DNA of 20,679 nt from a virus, in the IMG/VR virus record IMGVR_UViG_3300017746_000214, positions 1 through 20,679 of that record. The stretch is one strand, 5' to 3'. Below are positions 5,789 to 15,946 of the stretch, piece by piece; the stretch's first letter is position 1, and each line of letters opens with the position of its first letter. The notes beneath the pieces were generated by a model. The model searched no databases. It saw nothing but the letters and a program-made list of their open reading frames with translations, and was not told the origin of the DNA. Position numbers and translations under genes: made by a program.

Positions 5789-7363
5789 TTATCCTTGTTG
5801 GCTTTGTATGTTATTAGATAGTCTAAACTTTATTTCGTATTGGAAAAGTTTATCCTTTCTGTATGTCTTTTGTGTATATGATTTGTTAGTTATAATAACA
5901 GCTTCGAAAGATGCAGCTCCATAACCAGGCAAATCATTCAGTAAATTCGTTGGTATCTCTGCTCTAACATCTGGTGATGTAAACAGTGACTCGAGTGTTT
6001 TTGCGTCTACGTCTGAAATATATCCAGTAGTTGCAGTAAACTCTACTACATTAACAGAACTATAAACAGTTTCACCTCTATACTCAGGATCCGATTCCCA
6101 TAGTGCTGCACTAGGGTTATATGATGGAGTATGATATGTGTTTTTATTAGTTGTAATCTTTTTAGTATTCTTTGCTCTAAATACATATTGATCTCTAAAG
6201 CCAAATCTGTTTAACCAACTAACTTGCATTGGTTCGTAATCTAAACAGTCTGGTTCTGTTTTAATGTATAACTGTGGTTCACCTAATGGATATACATTAG
6301 CACCTTCTATAGTCTGACTACATTGATTAGGTGTTAGTGTATCAACTTGCGCAACTACAGGATATATCCAATAGTGTGTCCAATCATCATCATTAATCTC
6401 AAATTCAGCTGCTGAACCATCTGTTCTAGTCAAGTAGACATGCTCTAAATTCTTTGGACCTGATCCTATTGTTGTAAAGAAGTATGGATATGTGAGTCCT
6501 ACACCTTCTCTCCAAGTTGTGTTAGGACCTGCACCATTCGCTACGAAATTAGGAATAATTGGGTTTGCGAGTTCGCTAGTACCATTATACATTACTATAT
6601 AGAATCCATCTATACCTTTGACCCATGATTCAGGAGCAGGGTTACCTAGTCTCACTGAATTAATCCATGATTTAGTTGCGTAGTCCTCTAAACCAACATA
6701 GTGTCTACCTATCATAACATTATCTACAATAGCTGTTGGATATGCATAACCACAATCTTGTATTCTCAAGCGATCTTGGTTATCACTCAGTGGTCTAGAT
6801 ATATCGTTAACATATGTGCAATTGTATATACCTTCAGTATCTCCTATAACTTCTGGTGTAAAGAAGTTTTCTGGCAAACCTTGATCATTTTTATCAAACT
6901 GTCTGTTCCACCATGGTTTAACACCACTAAATACTTGATATGGACCACTACTGAGGTTCCAACTTTCTGGTGATGTTGATGTAGAGTTAGTTACACCAGC
7001 TCTAACATAGTATGAAGTAGATTCATTTGTTGCATCTGATAGTATCTTTGGTTGATTAGATCCGAATGGTTGTGTTGAACCTGACACTGTCGTAGGCACA
7101 TAACCTCCAAGTCTATCTGCATCATCTTTACCAACCGAGACATAACTTTGTAATACTGTTTGTATATCGAAGATCGCTGCGTTGTTGGCGTTCTTTGATT
7201 GGTGTAGAGTTGCTAGAAGTACTGAGTTACCTACCGCTGGAGCTTGATCCCATACTTCTAATACAAAGAATGTATTTGTCATCTCTGGATAGTTGATTGT
7301 AAATATCGTTGGTCCGTATGCTGCGTCTATACCAGCTGGCGTTTGTGCTAATGTGAATGCCAT
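5789..7363 (-). CDS. large tail/baseplate structural protein
   Basis: A 524-residue beta-rich protein. The start (YGPTIFTINYPEMTNTFFVLEVW and then NAAIFDIQTVLQSYV, residues about 16-72) and a later SWLNRFGFRDQYVFRAKNT stretch resemble conserved tail proteins of Bacteroidota phages whose precise role is unresolved. It has no signal peptide, coiled coil or catalytic motif that I can see. It follows the gp10-like completion gene by 1 bp and precedes the putative hub by 1 bp, so it belongs to the same tail operon. A distal-tail (Dit-like) or baseplate ring function is plausible from position; the sequence alone does not decide. The A-rich leader has no Shine-Dalgarno sequence. Confidence 0.6.
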   Translation of the reverse strand: MAFTLAQTPAGIDAAYGPTIFTINYPEMTNTFFVLEVWDQAPAVGNSVLLATLHQSKNANNAAIFDIQTVLQSYVSVGKDDADRLGGYVPTTVSGSTQPFGSNQPKILSDATNESTSYYVRAGVTNSTSTSPESWNLSSGPYQVFSGVKPWWNRQFDKNDQGLPENFFTPEVIGDTEGIYNCTYVNDISRPLSDNQDRLRIQDCGYAYPTAIVDNVMIGRHYVGLEDYATKSWINSVRLGNPAPESWVKGIDGFYIVMYNGTSELANPIIPNFVANGAGPNTTWREGVGLTYPYFFTTIGSGPKNLEHVYLTRTDGSAAEFEINDDDWTHYWIYPVVAQVDTLTPNQCSQTIEGANVYPLGEPQLYIKTEPDCLDYEPMQVSWLNRFGFRDQYVFRAKNTKKITTNKNTYHTPSYNPSAALWESDPEYRGETVYSSVNVVEFTATTGYISDVDAKTLESLFTSPDVRAEIPTNLLNDLPGYGAASFEAVIITNKSYTQKTYRKDKLFQYEIKFRLSNNIQSQQG

Positions 7364-7364
7364 A

Positions 7365-7805
7365 TTATATGTCTTCTGTTATTATTTCTGATATGAGATC
7401 AGAGAGGTTTAAAATTGTGTTCGCAGCTTGTGGTGCTGGTGCTATGCTACCTTGCTTCGCAGTTGAAAATTTAAATATATCATTAGGTCCTTTATTATCA
7501 AAAGCAGTAGCATTAGAGACTACACCTAATGGGATAGCTTGACCACTAACTCCGAATATCTGATAGTATCCATAGTAATTCATACCAATATCAATTTGTG
7601 TGCCATTGACTGACGCACGTATACTACCACGTAAACCTTTTGAATTAGGTCTATTTAGATTCTTGCCTGCATTCTCTAATCCACTGATCAACTGAGATGG
7701 TAGATCTGCTGCCACCTGATTTAGTGTGGTAGTAGTTACATTCTCTAACTCAGTAGTGAATTCATCAAGCTCTGCTAATATGTCATCTATATTAGTGTCT
7801 ATCAT
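7365..7805 (-). CDS. HK97 gp10-like head-tail/tail completion protein
   Basis: A 146-residue protein resembling the HK97 gp10-like family, which acts at the head-tail interface or in tail completion. The supporting part is the mid-region at about residues 55-90: a basic loop (NRPNSKGLRGSIRASVNG), then a beta hairpin and MNYYGYYQIFGV, which recalls the YA..vEfGt pattern of gp10 proteins. The N-terminal 45 residues look helical. Its start overlaps the stop of the upstream terminator-like gene by 4 bp and a large tail gene follows after 1 bp. Adjacency to the tail-terminator-like gene supports the call. Similarity is weak, so a structure prediction would be the real test. Confidence 0.6.
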   Translation of the reverse strand: MIDTNIDDILAELDEFTTELENVTTTTLNQVAADLPSQLISGLENAGKNLNRPNSKGLRGSIRASVNGTQIDIGMNYYGYYQIFGVSGQAIPLGVVSNATAFDNKGPNDIFKFSTAKQGSIAPAPQAANTILNLSDLISEIITEDI

Positions 7806-12707: not shown

Positions 12708-13049
12708 TTAAAATACTGGAGACGTACCTGATGATTCTGGTGCACGTTTAGATGGTTCTTTATATTTATATGTAATAGAATAATTGGTTTTACTACCAGC
12801 GTCCTTGTATATCTCTATATGACCTTTTTTATGTAACTGTTCTAAATTATATTTAATATCCTTTTCATGTGTATGTAATATCTGTGATATTTGTCCAGTT
12901 AAAGCTTCACATGGTTTAGTACCATTAGATGTAAATTTCTTTATTAAAGGAAGCAATATCTTTTGAAGACCATTAATTGATCTATCTGTCCATATAGAAT
13001 TTGGTATATTAAAGTCTAGGTTGTCGTAATTTTTATTGTGTATCTTCAT
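12708..13049 (-). CDS. winged-helix DNA-binding protein
   Basis: A 113-residue protein with a probable winged helix-turn-helix domain: LQKILLPLIKKFTSNG (helix 1), CEALTGQISQILHTHEKDIKYNLEQLHKKGHIEIYKD (about residues 47-84, helix-turn-helix plus wing). Such domains occur in phage replisome organisers, in MarR-like regulators and in plasmid initiators. The last 25 residues are disordered-looking. The translation start lies in an 18-bp sequence (minus strand AAAACAAAATATTATGAA) that is identical at the start of the initiator-like gene upstream, so the two may be translated alike. It follows the 52-residue helix-turn-helix gene by 19 bp. Initiator accessory or repressor are both possible. Confidence 0.6.
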   Translation of the reverse strand: MKIHNKNYDNLDFNIPNSIWTDRSINGLQKILLPLIKKFTSNGTKPCEALTGQISQILHTHEKDIKYNLEQLHKKGHIEIYKDAGSKTNYSITYKYKEPSKRAPESSGTSPVF

Positions 13050-13068
13050 AATATTTTGTTTTTATTTT

Positions 13069-13227
13069 TTAGTATGCGTAAACTATTCTTTTAACTGTAG
13101 TTGCTGATCTATTGGTAGCTTCAGCAATTTGCTTTAAACTATATCCATCTAGACGTAGTTTTAAAATAGTTTGTTTTTCTTTACTTGTTAATCTGGTTCT
13201 ACCTTTTGGTAATTCATTGATTTTCAT
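13069..13227 (-). CDS. 52-residue helix-turn-helix regulator
   Basis: A short gene starting MKINELPKGRTRLTSKEKQ and ending in KRIVYAY before TAA at 13069-13071. The LKLRLDGYSLKQIAEATN stretch followed by RSATTVKRI is an almost textbook helix-turn-helix of the resolvase/transposase-like or homeodomain-like kind (helix 2 KQIAEAT, helix 3 SATTVKRI). It would bind DNA as a small repressor or activator. The leader is A-rich (TAAAACAA 6 bp before the ATG) without a Shine-Dalgarno sequence, as in its neighbours. A 15-bp motif lies 46 bp upstream of the ATG at exactly the same spacing as for the initiator-like gene, so both may be controlled together, possibly by this protein. Confidence 0.75.
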   Translation of the reverse strand: MKINELPKGRTRLTSKEKQTILKLRLDGYSLKQIAEATNRSATTVKRIVYAY

Positions 13228-13295: not shown

Positions 13296-13898
13296 TTAAA
13301 TATCAATACTATTCAAGAAATGTTCTAGTTCTCGTTTAGTTATGGTTTTGTTGGGTTTGGATGGAGGTGATCTAAAATCACCGTCATCCTCAGATATAAT
13401 AGATTTATTATTATCTATTATATGTATAGTATCTATATGTTGGTCTTGGAGACCAGTATTCTTGTCCTGGAGACCAGTAGTCTTGTCCTCAAGACCAGTA
13501 CTCTTGTCCTGGAGACCACTAGTCTTGTCCTGGAGACCAGTTTTCTTTATTCTTCTAGGTATAGATAGTGGTTGTTTATTTTCTAATCTACGCATCAAAG
13601 AACCAAAATCTAAATCGTAGTTTGTGGTGTCTTTAATTTGTATCAGGATATGTTCATACGTTAATGAGTCAAAGATGTCTCTAACTGCACTGTAACTACA
13701 TCCAGACAACTCTTGATATTTCTCTCTAGTCCAAATAACTTTATCATTCATTGCATAGTCAGAACCAACCATGATATTTAGAATAATTTTTTTAGATGTG
13801 TGTCCTTTTAATGCTGGACTTTTAGTAATAAAATCGAATGAGTAGTGGAATTTGCCTTTGTTATTATCCAGATATTTCTGTAATGTTTTACTTTTCAT
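13296..13898 (-). CDS. winged-helix replication initiator-like protein with internal repeats
   Basis: A 200-residue protein likely to act as replisome organiser. Residues about 34-90 form a winged helix: KKIILNIM, then WTREKYQELSGCSYSAVRDIFDSLTYEHILIQI. Residues 119-153 are five tandem seven-residue repeats of the type TGLQDK, followed by an acidic stretch and a C-terminal helix (TITKRELEHFLNSI), which may contact a helicase or loader. The repeat DNA is a candidate origin (see separate entry), giving the lambda O arrangement of an initiator gene with its own origin inside. No helicase or polymerase is encoded nearby, so host enzymes would be recruited. A regulatory motif lies upstream. A transcription regulator with a repeat linker is the alternative. 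Confidence 0.65.
   Translation of the reverse strand: MKSKTLQKYLDNNKGKFHYSFDFITKSPALKGHTSKKIILNIMVGSDYAMNDKVIWTREKYQELSGCSYSAVRDIFDSLTYEHILIQIKDTTNYDLDFGSLMRRLENKQPLSIPRRIKKTGLQDKTSGLQDKSTGLEDKTTGLQDKNTGLQDQHIDTIHIIDNNKSIISEDDGDFRSPPSKPNKTITKRELEHFLNSIDI
13394..13439. other. AT-rich inverted repeat beside iterons (possible DNA unwinding element)
   Basis: Directly next to the 21-bp repeats lies a very AT-rich stretch containing a perfect 11-bp inverted repeat, ATATAATAGAT at 13394-13404 and ATCTATTATAT at 13413-13423 with an 8-bp spacer. Iterons flanked by an easily melted AT-rich segment inside an initiator gene is the known plan of the lambda origin, so this may be the unwinding element. 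The sequence features are seen; the origin function is inferred. Confidence 0.5.
13440..13544. repeat. five tandem 21-bp repeats (iteron candidates)
   Basis: Five back-to-back copies of a 21-bp unit (plus strand cttgtcctggagaccagta with 2 more bases) fill this stretch exactly: 13440-13460, 13461-13481, 13482-13502, 13503-13523 and 13524-13544. Units are in codon register with the initiator-like gene. Each has the near-palindromic core CTGG-AGA-CCAG or a variant; the first has a perfect TGGTCT-TGG-AGACCA inverted repeat. The core uses codons CTC, CAG, GAC and AAG, which are uncommon in this AT-rich genome, suggesting selection on the DNA sequence and not only on the peptide. Confidence 0.9.
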
Positions 13899-13928
13899 AA
13901 TATTTTGTTTTAATGGTCTTTATGTTCT

Positions 13929-13973: not shown

Positions 13974-14008
13974 TAAAAAAAGAGACCTAGAAGAATCTAG
14001 ATCTCTTT
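13974..14008 (-). terminator. intrinsic terminator after tail fibre gene
   Basis: On the minus strand a stem with 13-base arms (AAAGAGATCTAGA at 13996-14008 and TCTAGGTCTCTTT at 13979-13991, one U-G pair) with a 4-base loop runs into an uninterrupted T tract. It lies downstream of the tail fibre region and just upstream of the promoter-like motif of the initiator gene, so it separates the virion block from the replication block. Confidence 0.85.
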
Positions 14009-14161
14009 AACAAAATATATAAAACACCTGGAATTATGATAACCAGGAAATAATAACAAACAACTAAAAAGTAAAAAAGAAGGTGTGGCGCACCGTACGT
14101 AAAAAAGAAATAGTTTGTTTGTTACTAATTATATATCTTTTTTTATTTTTGTTTCAATTTA

Positions 14162-14398
14162 TTATGAAATAACTAAAGCTCCTGCATTTGACACAGTTAA
14201 TGTGTATGCTGTTCCGTCTGGAGATAGCATTGTAATACCATTACCACCAGTTCCACCATCAGGTGCAACTACATACAATGCTCTAACGTGTGTTGTATCT
14301 GCATTTATACTTGTAACTTGTCTTCCCATTGCAACTGCACCTGCTTGACCAGCTGATGTTTGTTGACCGAAAGCAACTGAACCATCTCCTGATGCTAC
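14162..14398 (-). pseudogene. in-frame 3' continuation of tail fibre beyond the stop
   Basis: After the internal TAA the same frame stays open for 78 codons to TAA at 14162-14164. It reads VASGDGSVAFGQQTSAGQ, further AVAMGRQ-type repeats, then ALYVVAPDGGTGGNGITMLS and ends TVSNAGALVIS. This is clearly the rest of the beta-roll plus the fibre tip. There is no ATG at the beginning that would make it an independent gene of sensible length. It is either a remnant after a nonsense change (CAA to TAA would do), a sequencing error in the stop, or a read-through extension. Confidence 0.8.
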
Positions 14399-15556
14399 TT
14401 AAGTTCTACCAAAACTAATAGCATATGAGTTAGTAGCTTCTGCATATTGTCCAAAGGCAGCAGCATGTGTACTTGATGCAACTGCATCCTGCCCATATGC
14501 CATTGCTCCTGTGCCTCCTGATGCACTTGCACCGTTACCAATTGCGATTGAATTACTTGAAGTTGCACTTCCTGTAGCTCCTGTTACAGCACTCTGTACT
14601 GAATTAGAACCAGAACCAGCAGTCATACCAGCGGCTCCTCCACCACCTACTGCGGTAGAATCAATTTGTAAATCACCAGTTGCAGTAATGTTTAAACGTC
14701 TGTCTGTACCACCTGCATCTGACATAATAATACCACCAGCTGTTGGTGTTGAGTCTGTTTGTAGTTCTACAGCTTTCATTGAAACTGTACTTGCAATATT
14801 ACCAGTTACATCTTTACCTAAAGCGATAGCGTCTGTAGCTGTTGCTTGTGCTAATTTTCCAATTGCTATTGCACCTGCTGCCAAAGCGTCAGCTTCTTTA
14901 CCAACTGCTATAGCATCTGTTTGAGTTGCAGATGAACCATATCCACCTACTACTGTAGCTCCTTCAGCACTAGCTGTACTAAATGCTCCGAATACTGCAC
15001 TTGAAAATGCTGATGCTGTTGAACTAGCACCTACTACTACAGCTCTACTACCTGATGCATTAGAACTATCACCAATTGCAGTTGATCTTGATCCTGTTGC
15101 TTGTGCTCCATTACCTATAGCTACATCTTTTTCATTTGTAGCATCAGTATTAAAACCAATTGCAACGTTACTTCTAGCAAAAGCGTCATCTCCACCTGCA
15201 TTAGCTGTATTACCAATTGCAATGTTATTACCACTTGTTGCAGTTGCACCATCACCTAAAGCAATAGTATCTGCTGCTGAAGCGTTTGCTGCTACAGTAG
15301 TTAAAGTAGAAGCTGATTGCATAGAATCAGTTCCAGTACCACTAACTAAACCACCTGATGCAATACCTGTTACGGTTGCTGAAGTAAAGTCTGCATTACC
15401 TGTAAATTTAATTGTTGTTGTTGATGCTTCTAGCGGTAGTTGGTTTCCTACACCGTCAGTGATCACTCTGTTTGTTCCGTTGATTGCTGCATTATCGAGA
15501 GTCTTTAAAAGTCCTTCGTATGATGCATTAATCGCTTGTCCTGTTAATGTACTCAT
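14399..15556 (-). CDS. tail fibre with YadA-like head (Hep_Hag) repeats, truncated by TAA
   Basis: A 385-residue fibre or adhesin that probably binds the host surface. The N-terminus (MSTLTGQAINASYEGLLKTL, then TDGVGNQLPLE) is a familiar virion-attachment start in Bacteroidota phage fibres. Residues about 95-245 and 326-385 consist of roughly 14-residue repeats such as NNIAIGNTANAGG and DAIAVGKEADALAAG, the left-handed beta-roll repeats of YadA/Hep_Hag adhesins; a non-repeat section with a Gly-rich hinge lies between. The frame stops at TAA (14399-14401) in the middle of a repeat, and the next 78 codons in the same frame continue the repeats and a C-terminal tip. It lies 33 bp after the NGSW-repeat gene and is probably co-expressed with it. 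Confidence 0.8.
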   Translation of the reverse strand: MSTLTGQAINASYEGLLKTLDNAAINGTNRVITDGVGNQLPLEASTTTIKFTGNADFTSATVTGIASGGLVSGTGTDSMQSASTLTTVAANASAADTIALGDGATATSGNNIAIGNTANAGGDDAFARSNVAIGFNTDATNEKDVAIGNGAQATGSRSTAIGDSSNASGSRAVVVGASSTASAFSSAVFGAFSTASAEGATVVGGYGSSATQTDAIAVGKEADALAAGAIAIGKLAQATATDAIALGKDVTGNIASTVSMKAVELQTDSTPTAGGIIMSDAGGTDRRLNITATGDLQIDSTAVGGGGAAGMTAGSGSNSVQSAVTGATGSATSSNSIAIGNGASASGGTGAMAYGQDAVASSTHAAAFGQYAEATNSYAISFGRT

Positions 15557-15589: not shown

Positions 15590-15946
15590 TTAGGTTAAAG
15601 ACCATGTTCTCGTTTCTGATTCCCATAGTACGTTGTTAATATTCCATATAAATGCTGGTAATGGTGCTTCCTCATTTGCAAGTGCCATCCACCAACTTCC
15701 ATTAATAGGTAGTGTAATATTATATGATTCTGCTAATGCTTGAACCCATGACCCGTTACTAGCTTCAGTTACTCCACGAAATTCACATAACGCTTGCAAC
15801 CAAGAACCATTCACAGCTGATGTTATACCTAAATATTCACAGTATGCTTGGATCCATGATCCATTTGTTGGAACTATTACTACTCCTTCTGATTGAACAA
15901 ATACGTATTCTTGTACTGCACTTGTCATATTACTAGTTATTGCCAT
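15590..15946 (-). CDS. NGSW-repeat protein, probably virion-associated
   Basis: A 118-residue protein dominated by four copies of an 18-residue repeat, each beginning NGSW (residues 28-31, 46-49, 64-67 and 82-85) and continuing with a helical segment such as IQAYCEYLGIT or LQALCEFRGVT. The C-terminus (FIWNINNVLWESETRTWSLT) resembles tail-fibre-associated ends in flavobacterial phages. No enzymatic motif is visible. It stands between the holin-like gene and the tail fibre and may be an accessory fibre, attachment or fibre-assembly protein. A TATATTTG box lies 7 bp before the start codon. The function is unknown. Confidence 0.65.
   Translation of the reverse strand: MAITSNMTSAVQEYVFVQSEGVVIVPTNGSWIQAYCEYLGITSAVNGSWLQALCEFRGVTEASNGSWVQALAESYNITLPINGSWWMALANEEAPLPAFIWNINNVLWESETRTWSLT

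Follow-up and report, generated by a model that had tools for sequence, protein, structure and literature searches.

A putative replication origin of tandem iterons and paired hairpins inside the initiator gene of a marine tailed phage

The locus and its neighbourhood

The window analysed here is the whole of virus record IMGVR_UViG_3300017746_000214, 20,679 bases of a tailed phage, a marine virus of bacteria; the record may be incomplete, possibly a genome fragment, and its capsid, portal and terminase genes all lie on the minus strand. A 200-residue reading frame on the same strand joins a predicted winged-helix domain to a linker encoded by five tandem 21-bp units and a short C-terminal tail. 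The features of the module are as follows, with the evidence for each.

13296-13898, minus strand: putative initiator gene, 200 aa (winged-helix domain, repeat-encoded linker, short C-terminal tail); open reading frame
13545-13898, minus strand: predicted winged-helix DNA-binding domain, residues 1-118; AlphaFold2 model
13440-13544, minus strand: five 21-bp units, candidate iterons; sequence, Tandem Repeats Finder, codon shuffles, unit extraction
13527-13537, 13506-13516, 13485-13495, 13464-13474 and 13443-13453: invariant GTC-N5-GAC of the units
13394-13423: hairpin 1, AT-rich perfect inverted repeat, 11-bp arms, loop 8; shuffles, compensatory changes
13359-13389: hairpin 2, GGATG-GA-GGTGAT..ATCACC-GT-CATCC on the plus strand; folding, compensatory changes
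13296-13358, minus strand: coding sequence of the C-terminal tail (..KTITKRELEHFLNSIDI); alignments, with partial likeness to the tails of other initiators
12708-13049, minus strand: 113-aa DnaD-like winged-helix neighbour, candidate helicase-loading partner; PHROG, homologues
13979-14008, minus strand: terminator-like hairpin with a T-run, upstream of the initiator gene and marking the limit of the module; one found against 0.5 expected from shuffles

Between the initiator and DnaD-like genes a 52-residue helix-turn-helix protein (MKINELPKGRTRLTSKEKQTILKLRLDGYSLKQIAEATNRSATTVKRIVYAY) is encoded at 13069-13227 on the minus strand, and a similar protein is found at 7279-7419 of the related locus L003. 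An almost identical A-rich leader (..AAAACAAAATATTATG) stands at the start of both the DnaD-like gene (13045-13065) and the initiator gene (about 13894-13914). A fibre-like, repeat-rich reading frame (AIG.GA repeats; 14157-15556, minus strand) contains an in-frame TAG at 14399-14401, past which the same frame runs on for about 78 codons (VASGDGSVAFGQQTSAGQAG..); this TAG may be a genuine stop, an error in the sequence or a site of read-through. GC skew over the 20.7-kb record is uninformative, with no usable origin signal.

Five 21-bp units in the initiator gene

Direct reading, Tandem Repeats Finder and unit extraction agree on the five tandem 21-bp units at 13440-13544 that the first-pass annotation had described. 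Tandem Repeats Finder reports 13443-13541 with period 21, 4.7 copies, 87% matches and a score of 156, the other arrays in the window scoring 41-46. The self-match score of the gene is 61; the highest among 200 codon shuffles is 13, which puts the array far outside what chance would give in a gene of such make-up. Its internal symmetry had been given as a CTGG-N3-CCAG dyad in each unit, which is present in only two of the five; GTC-N5-GAC is present in all five, occurs seven times in the whole window and extends in the AT-proximal unit to a perfect TGGTC-N5-GACCA. The dyad of the window array is by itself not significant (p=0.10).

Read on the minus strand the units encode KTGLQDK, TSGLQDK, STGLEDK, TTGLQDK and NTGLQDQ. 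The core codons had been described as unlike the codon use around them, and this holds for GAC (24%), AAG (26%), CAG (23%) and CTC (7%), which are minority codons, but not for GGT, the commonest glycine codon (57%). Identical codons among the units could also be explained by recent duplication. A reading confined to the protein would make the array just that, a flexible TGLQDK linker grown by recent 21-bp duplication without any function in the DNA, and in the window it suits both a period that is a multiple of three and units that encode a tidy heptad.

The repeats persist in DNA and not in peptide

Searches with the window protein returned no direct homologue in viral_contigs or phages, and a search with the repeat-peptide pattern no match; in genome_contigs the TerL scan yielded no more than a short contig from an Aliivibrio MAG. 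Relatives, in more than 100 uncultivated viral loci, were reached via the large terminase (TerL) and a conserved sigma-like neighbour, and many have a winged-helix gene of about 150-250 residues at the same position, upstream of that neighbour. Four of these genes (L015, L116, L130 and L139) are homologous to that of the window. The first-pass annotation had set the comparison of homologues as the point on which its reading could fall: all four hold a period of 21-22 bp in the DNA, while their peptides are unrelated. The array is of 22 bp in L116 (4.4 copies), L139 (3.8) and L130 (3.3), and of 21 bp in L015 (3.8), where it continues past the stop codon into non-coding DNA. Elsewhere the period is 22 bp in L006 (4.7 copies), L118, L102 and L111, and 24 bp in L131 and L136. 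When a 22-bp period is read as codons the peptide differs in every copy, and still the DNA repeats.

Significant internal self-match (p<=0.01) was found in 24 of 32 syntenic initiator genes of related uncultivated phages, a proportion not to be taken as unbiased, as the 32 were hand-picked for their position and winged-helix character once tandem repeats had been given a first look. The contrast in lag is independent of how they were picked. In 18 of the 24 the lag is not divisible by three (22, 23 or 31 bp), such that copies are read in different frames, whereas among control reading frames of the same loci 11 of 164 were significant and every one of those 11 lags is divisible by three. Non-triplet lags in the initiator genes against only triplet lags in the controls indicate that selection acts on the DNA, as had been proposed from the window.

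Most of the significant controls are a tail protein with real peptide repeats. These repeats, of 21 and 54 bp (L063 1857-2291, L114 1749-2270, L060 2256-2699), belong to relatives of the window tail protein at 15590-15946 (NGSW-like motif) and contrast with the initiator arrays; that the same phages do contain genuine protein repeats speaks for the linker-only explanation. It is opposed by the non-triplet periods, by the unrelated peptides of homologues and syntenic genes, and by the array that is partly non-coding. A purely protein-level repeat is, in our estimate, very improbable. On the evidence of the relatives, the protein-repeat-only reading and chance were both rejected as sources of the array.

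Palindromic iterons with arms that change between phages

The repeat sequences and their peptides vary between phages; what recurs is the period, the position within the gene and the palindromic layout. The iteron of several families consists of two four-base arms, one the reverse complement of the other, around five bases, and the arms change from phage to phage: TGCA-N5-TGCA (L102), TGCC-N5-GGCA (L114), GGAC-N5-GTCC (L118 and L090), GGTC-N5-GACC (L120) and AGAC-N5-GTCT (L085). With units permuted by column, palindromy reaches p<=0.05 in 11 of 25 arrays and a combined p of 6e-11, a statistic to be read knowing that some of the phages are mutually related and that the spacer of five was suggested by the same data.

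Exchange of the binding domain together with its repeats

An exchange is seen between two of the loci, L017 (6855-7352) and L038 (5407-5910), which share 82% identity upstream of the gene and 93% downstream of the module. Over the binding domain and the iterons identity falls to 50%, i.e. they are unrelated there, and over the last 141 nt of the gene, comprising twin hairpins and tail, it is 92%. The gene after the initiator has likewise been exchanged. Such a swap is the outcome expected if the binding domain reads its own iterons, and it shows which parts of the putative origin are specific and which are constant.

Protein fold and replication context

The window protein has no Pfam or PHROG match by itself, and a PDB sequence search gave nothing significant. 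Since neither Pfam profile Phage_rep_O (PF04492) nor RepA_N matched, it is not filed in either family; its relative L006 scores 15.7 bits with Phage_rep_O, under the cut-off of 28.7. Folded alone at full length the protein reaches a pLDDT of 32. With a five-row alignment, AlphaFold2 models the winged-helix domain at a mean pLDDT of 78, 85-92 in the core, as helices followed by a beta wing, and residues 1-118 are thus predicted with good confidence to be a winged helix. Structural matches are middling (Z about 8), to CRP-type winged helices and the DnaD N-terminal domain.

The homologues L130, L116 and L139 match PHROG families for replication initiation, O-like or DnaD-like proteins with best E values of 4e-8 to 1e-5, and among relatives at large the matches to these families include L131 (7e-17), L003 (3e-11), L006 (2e-9) and L130 (4e-8). 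The 113-residue neighbour matches the DnaD-like helicase loader PHROG 186 weakly (5.7e-5) and the O-like PHROG 345 (2.3e-4), and its homologues in L003, L017 and L029 are 52-55% identical and hold the same position. Downstream genes of the relatives encode a DnaC-like loader (L098, 5e-12), a DnaB helicase (L113 and L104) or a small DnaD-like protein.

In L008, L064, L083 and L094 a primase-helicase module stands instead (DUF5906 in L094, the other three judged by similar sequence), and no tandem array was seen in that stretch. This absence, together with repeats that travel with the initiator's DNA-binding domain and not with the terminase, argues against a site of DNA packaging (pac/cos) or recombination, which might otherwise be suggested by terminase genes a few kb downstream of the module in those related phages that show both. 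We find such a function very improbable, and on the comparison with relatives the packaging-site reading was rejected.

An array bound by the encoded protein need not be an origin, as its role could lie in autoregulation, in copy control or in partition: operator arrays commonly accompany winged-helix proteins, control functions are frequent among iterons, and the folds matched are mostly transcription regulators. The array lies, however, within the coding region and far from the start of the gene, the neighbours and the relatives' family matches point to replication functions, and the flanking AT-rich and hairpin elements suit an origin. A regulatory array of this kind is in our view unlikely.

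AT-rich DNA and a twin hairpin beside the array

The 60 bp 3' of the window array are 77% AT. Within the window's family the AT content 3' of the array is 77, 72, 78, 80 and 80%, against 67, 62, 70, 70 and 66% for the gene, and over all families together the difference (68.3% against 67.1%) is not significant. The 11-bp perfect inverted repeat reported here at 13394-13423, with a loop of 8, stands up to scrutiny, being matched by none of 100 codon shuffles of 110 bp (p=0.01). It proves to be the first of two hairpins, the second (13359-13389) being an addition to the earlier account; jointly they have a z of -6.1, and none of 200 shuffles is as stable.

Two successive hairpins 3' of the iterons are present in each of the four window-family members that have a full 3' tail (L015, lacking the usual tail, was left out) and in all six of family 3 (L003, L017, L009, L062, L075 and L089). 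At these ten loci folding gives z of -4 to -7.5, with 0 of 200 shuffles as stable, and in sliding windows over the neighbourhood the twin-hairpin site ranks first or second in all ten; in five loci of families 2 and 4, from which the twin hairpin is absent, the corresponding place is unremarkable. Compensatory changes occur at 8 of the 22 pairs in the window's family and at 8 of the 26 in family 3, small samples of four and six sequences. A covariance model built on the ten regions together recovered no more than 6 pairs, since the columns of the two families are not homologous, and it was set aside. Family 2 has AT-rich 12-bp direct repeats at the place of the twin hairpin: in L006, L102, L111 and L114 the last iteron is followed by CATATA and then by 12-bp repeats such as TACTAGATAAGG, with no twin hairpin.

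The computation of hairpins does not distinguish RNA from DNA structure, and the twin hairpin, though not the array, might act in the mRNA, in pausing, processing or translational control of the next gene. The strong RNA folding (z as above) and a site 80-140 nt before the stop codon favour such a role; against it, the hairpins sit where lambda-type origins have their unwinding region, and no Rfam family matched in the window. An mRNA element is a possibility to be taken seriously, if less likely than not.

Comparison with known in-gene origins

Origins inside genes are already known from lambda O, SPP1 gene 38 and pSK41 rep. In gene O of lambda, four iterons, inverted repeats that each take two O molecules, precede a 39-bp AT-rich block (PMC6022878), and in Stx lambdoid phages there are six iterons and O is longer by 13 residues (PMC7466680). 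The lambda O precedent that had been invoked is an apt one, the order being the same: iterons as inverted repeats and then an AT-rich block, inside the gene (PMC6022878, PMC7466680). Like lambda, the window would have an in-gene origin with tandem inverted-repeat iterons, an AT-rich block 3' and a loader gene next; unlike lambda, it has five 21-bp iterons of other sequence, a conserved hairpin pair, no Phage_rep_O match and a neighbour that is DnaD-like, not lambda P. SPP1 oriL, in gene 38, combines direct repeats with an AT-rich unwinding element, a loader and a DnaB-type helicase (PMC6316719). The window shares the direct repeats within the initiator gene, and its AT-rich segment would be the counterpart of the unwinding element; SPP1 has a second origin elsewhere, and no sequence relation between the two was found.

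In the staphylococcal RepA_N plasmid pSK41 the N-domain, a winged helix, binds boxes midway along rep, and the linker encoded by the origin is dispensable; in the chimeric pPR9 N-domain and origin were swapped as a unit while the C-domain stayed (PMC5703833). The exchange between L017 and L038 is of the same kind, although the window, unlike these plasmids, comes from a phage, has no RepA_N match and encodes a much shorter C-terminal tail. To our knowledge the origin of RSF1010 does not lie inside its initiator gene. RSF1010 oriV resembles the window in having iterons and short stem-loops, ssiA and ssiB, which are used for priming (PMC4234260); there they are read by a plasmid primase, and beside the window's array no primase of that type was identified. 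What is new here lies in how wide the series is, in palindromic arms that differ from one phage to the next, and in the twin hairpin, a less familiar feature among in-gene origins.

A model for initiation

The in-gene DNA repeats across relatives, the replication neighbours and the cassette exchange support the view, first put forward in the first-pass annotation, of an origin within the initiator gene, and we consider it very probable that the locus is an origin of theta-type replication lying inside its own initiator gene. Selection on the DNA of the repeats, their palindromic layout and position, the joint exchange of domain and repeats, and the conservation of the hairpins are each established by sequence comparison; that the window protein binds the array, and that melting, helicase loading and the start of replication follow there, we infer.

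Dimers of the winged-helix protein would occupy the five palindromic iterons of 21 bp, which, being about two helical turns apart, would present themselves on the same face of the helix. The bound dimers would bend and strain the DNA such that the AT-rich block and hairpin 1, beside the last iteron, open. The replicative helicase could then be loaded via the C-terminal tail and the neighbouring DnaD-like protein, and a loading or priming site might be offered by hairpin 2, perhaps also by hairpin 1, where the strands are single. The 'compact self-contained replicon' proposed earlier is an overstatement, as a helicase or loader would still be needed.

More tentatively, and with some doubt on our part, the families with twin hairpins may embody an origin design of their own: a cassette that changes fast, made up of the binding domain and its own in-gene iterons, beside a constant hairpin pair for single-strand loading or priming. 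If so, phages could change the specificity of the initiator without rebuilding the rest of the origin. The series comprises more than 20 natural, putative in-gene origins with different repeats, from phages with no close cultured relatives in the collection searched, and its non-triplet periods reveal selection at the DNA level without experiment. It offers in the twin hairpin a candidate priming or loading element, and its paired initiator and iteron sequences would make the recognition code of winged-helix initiators readable.
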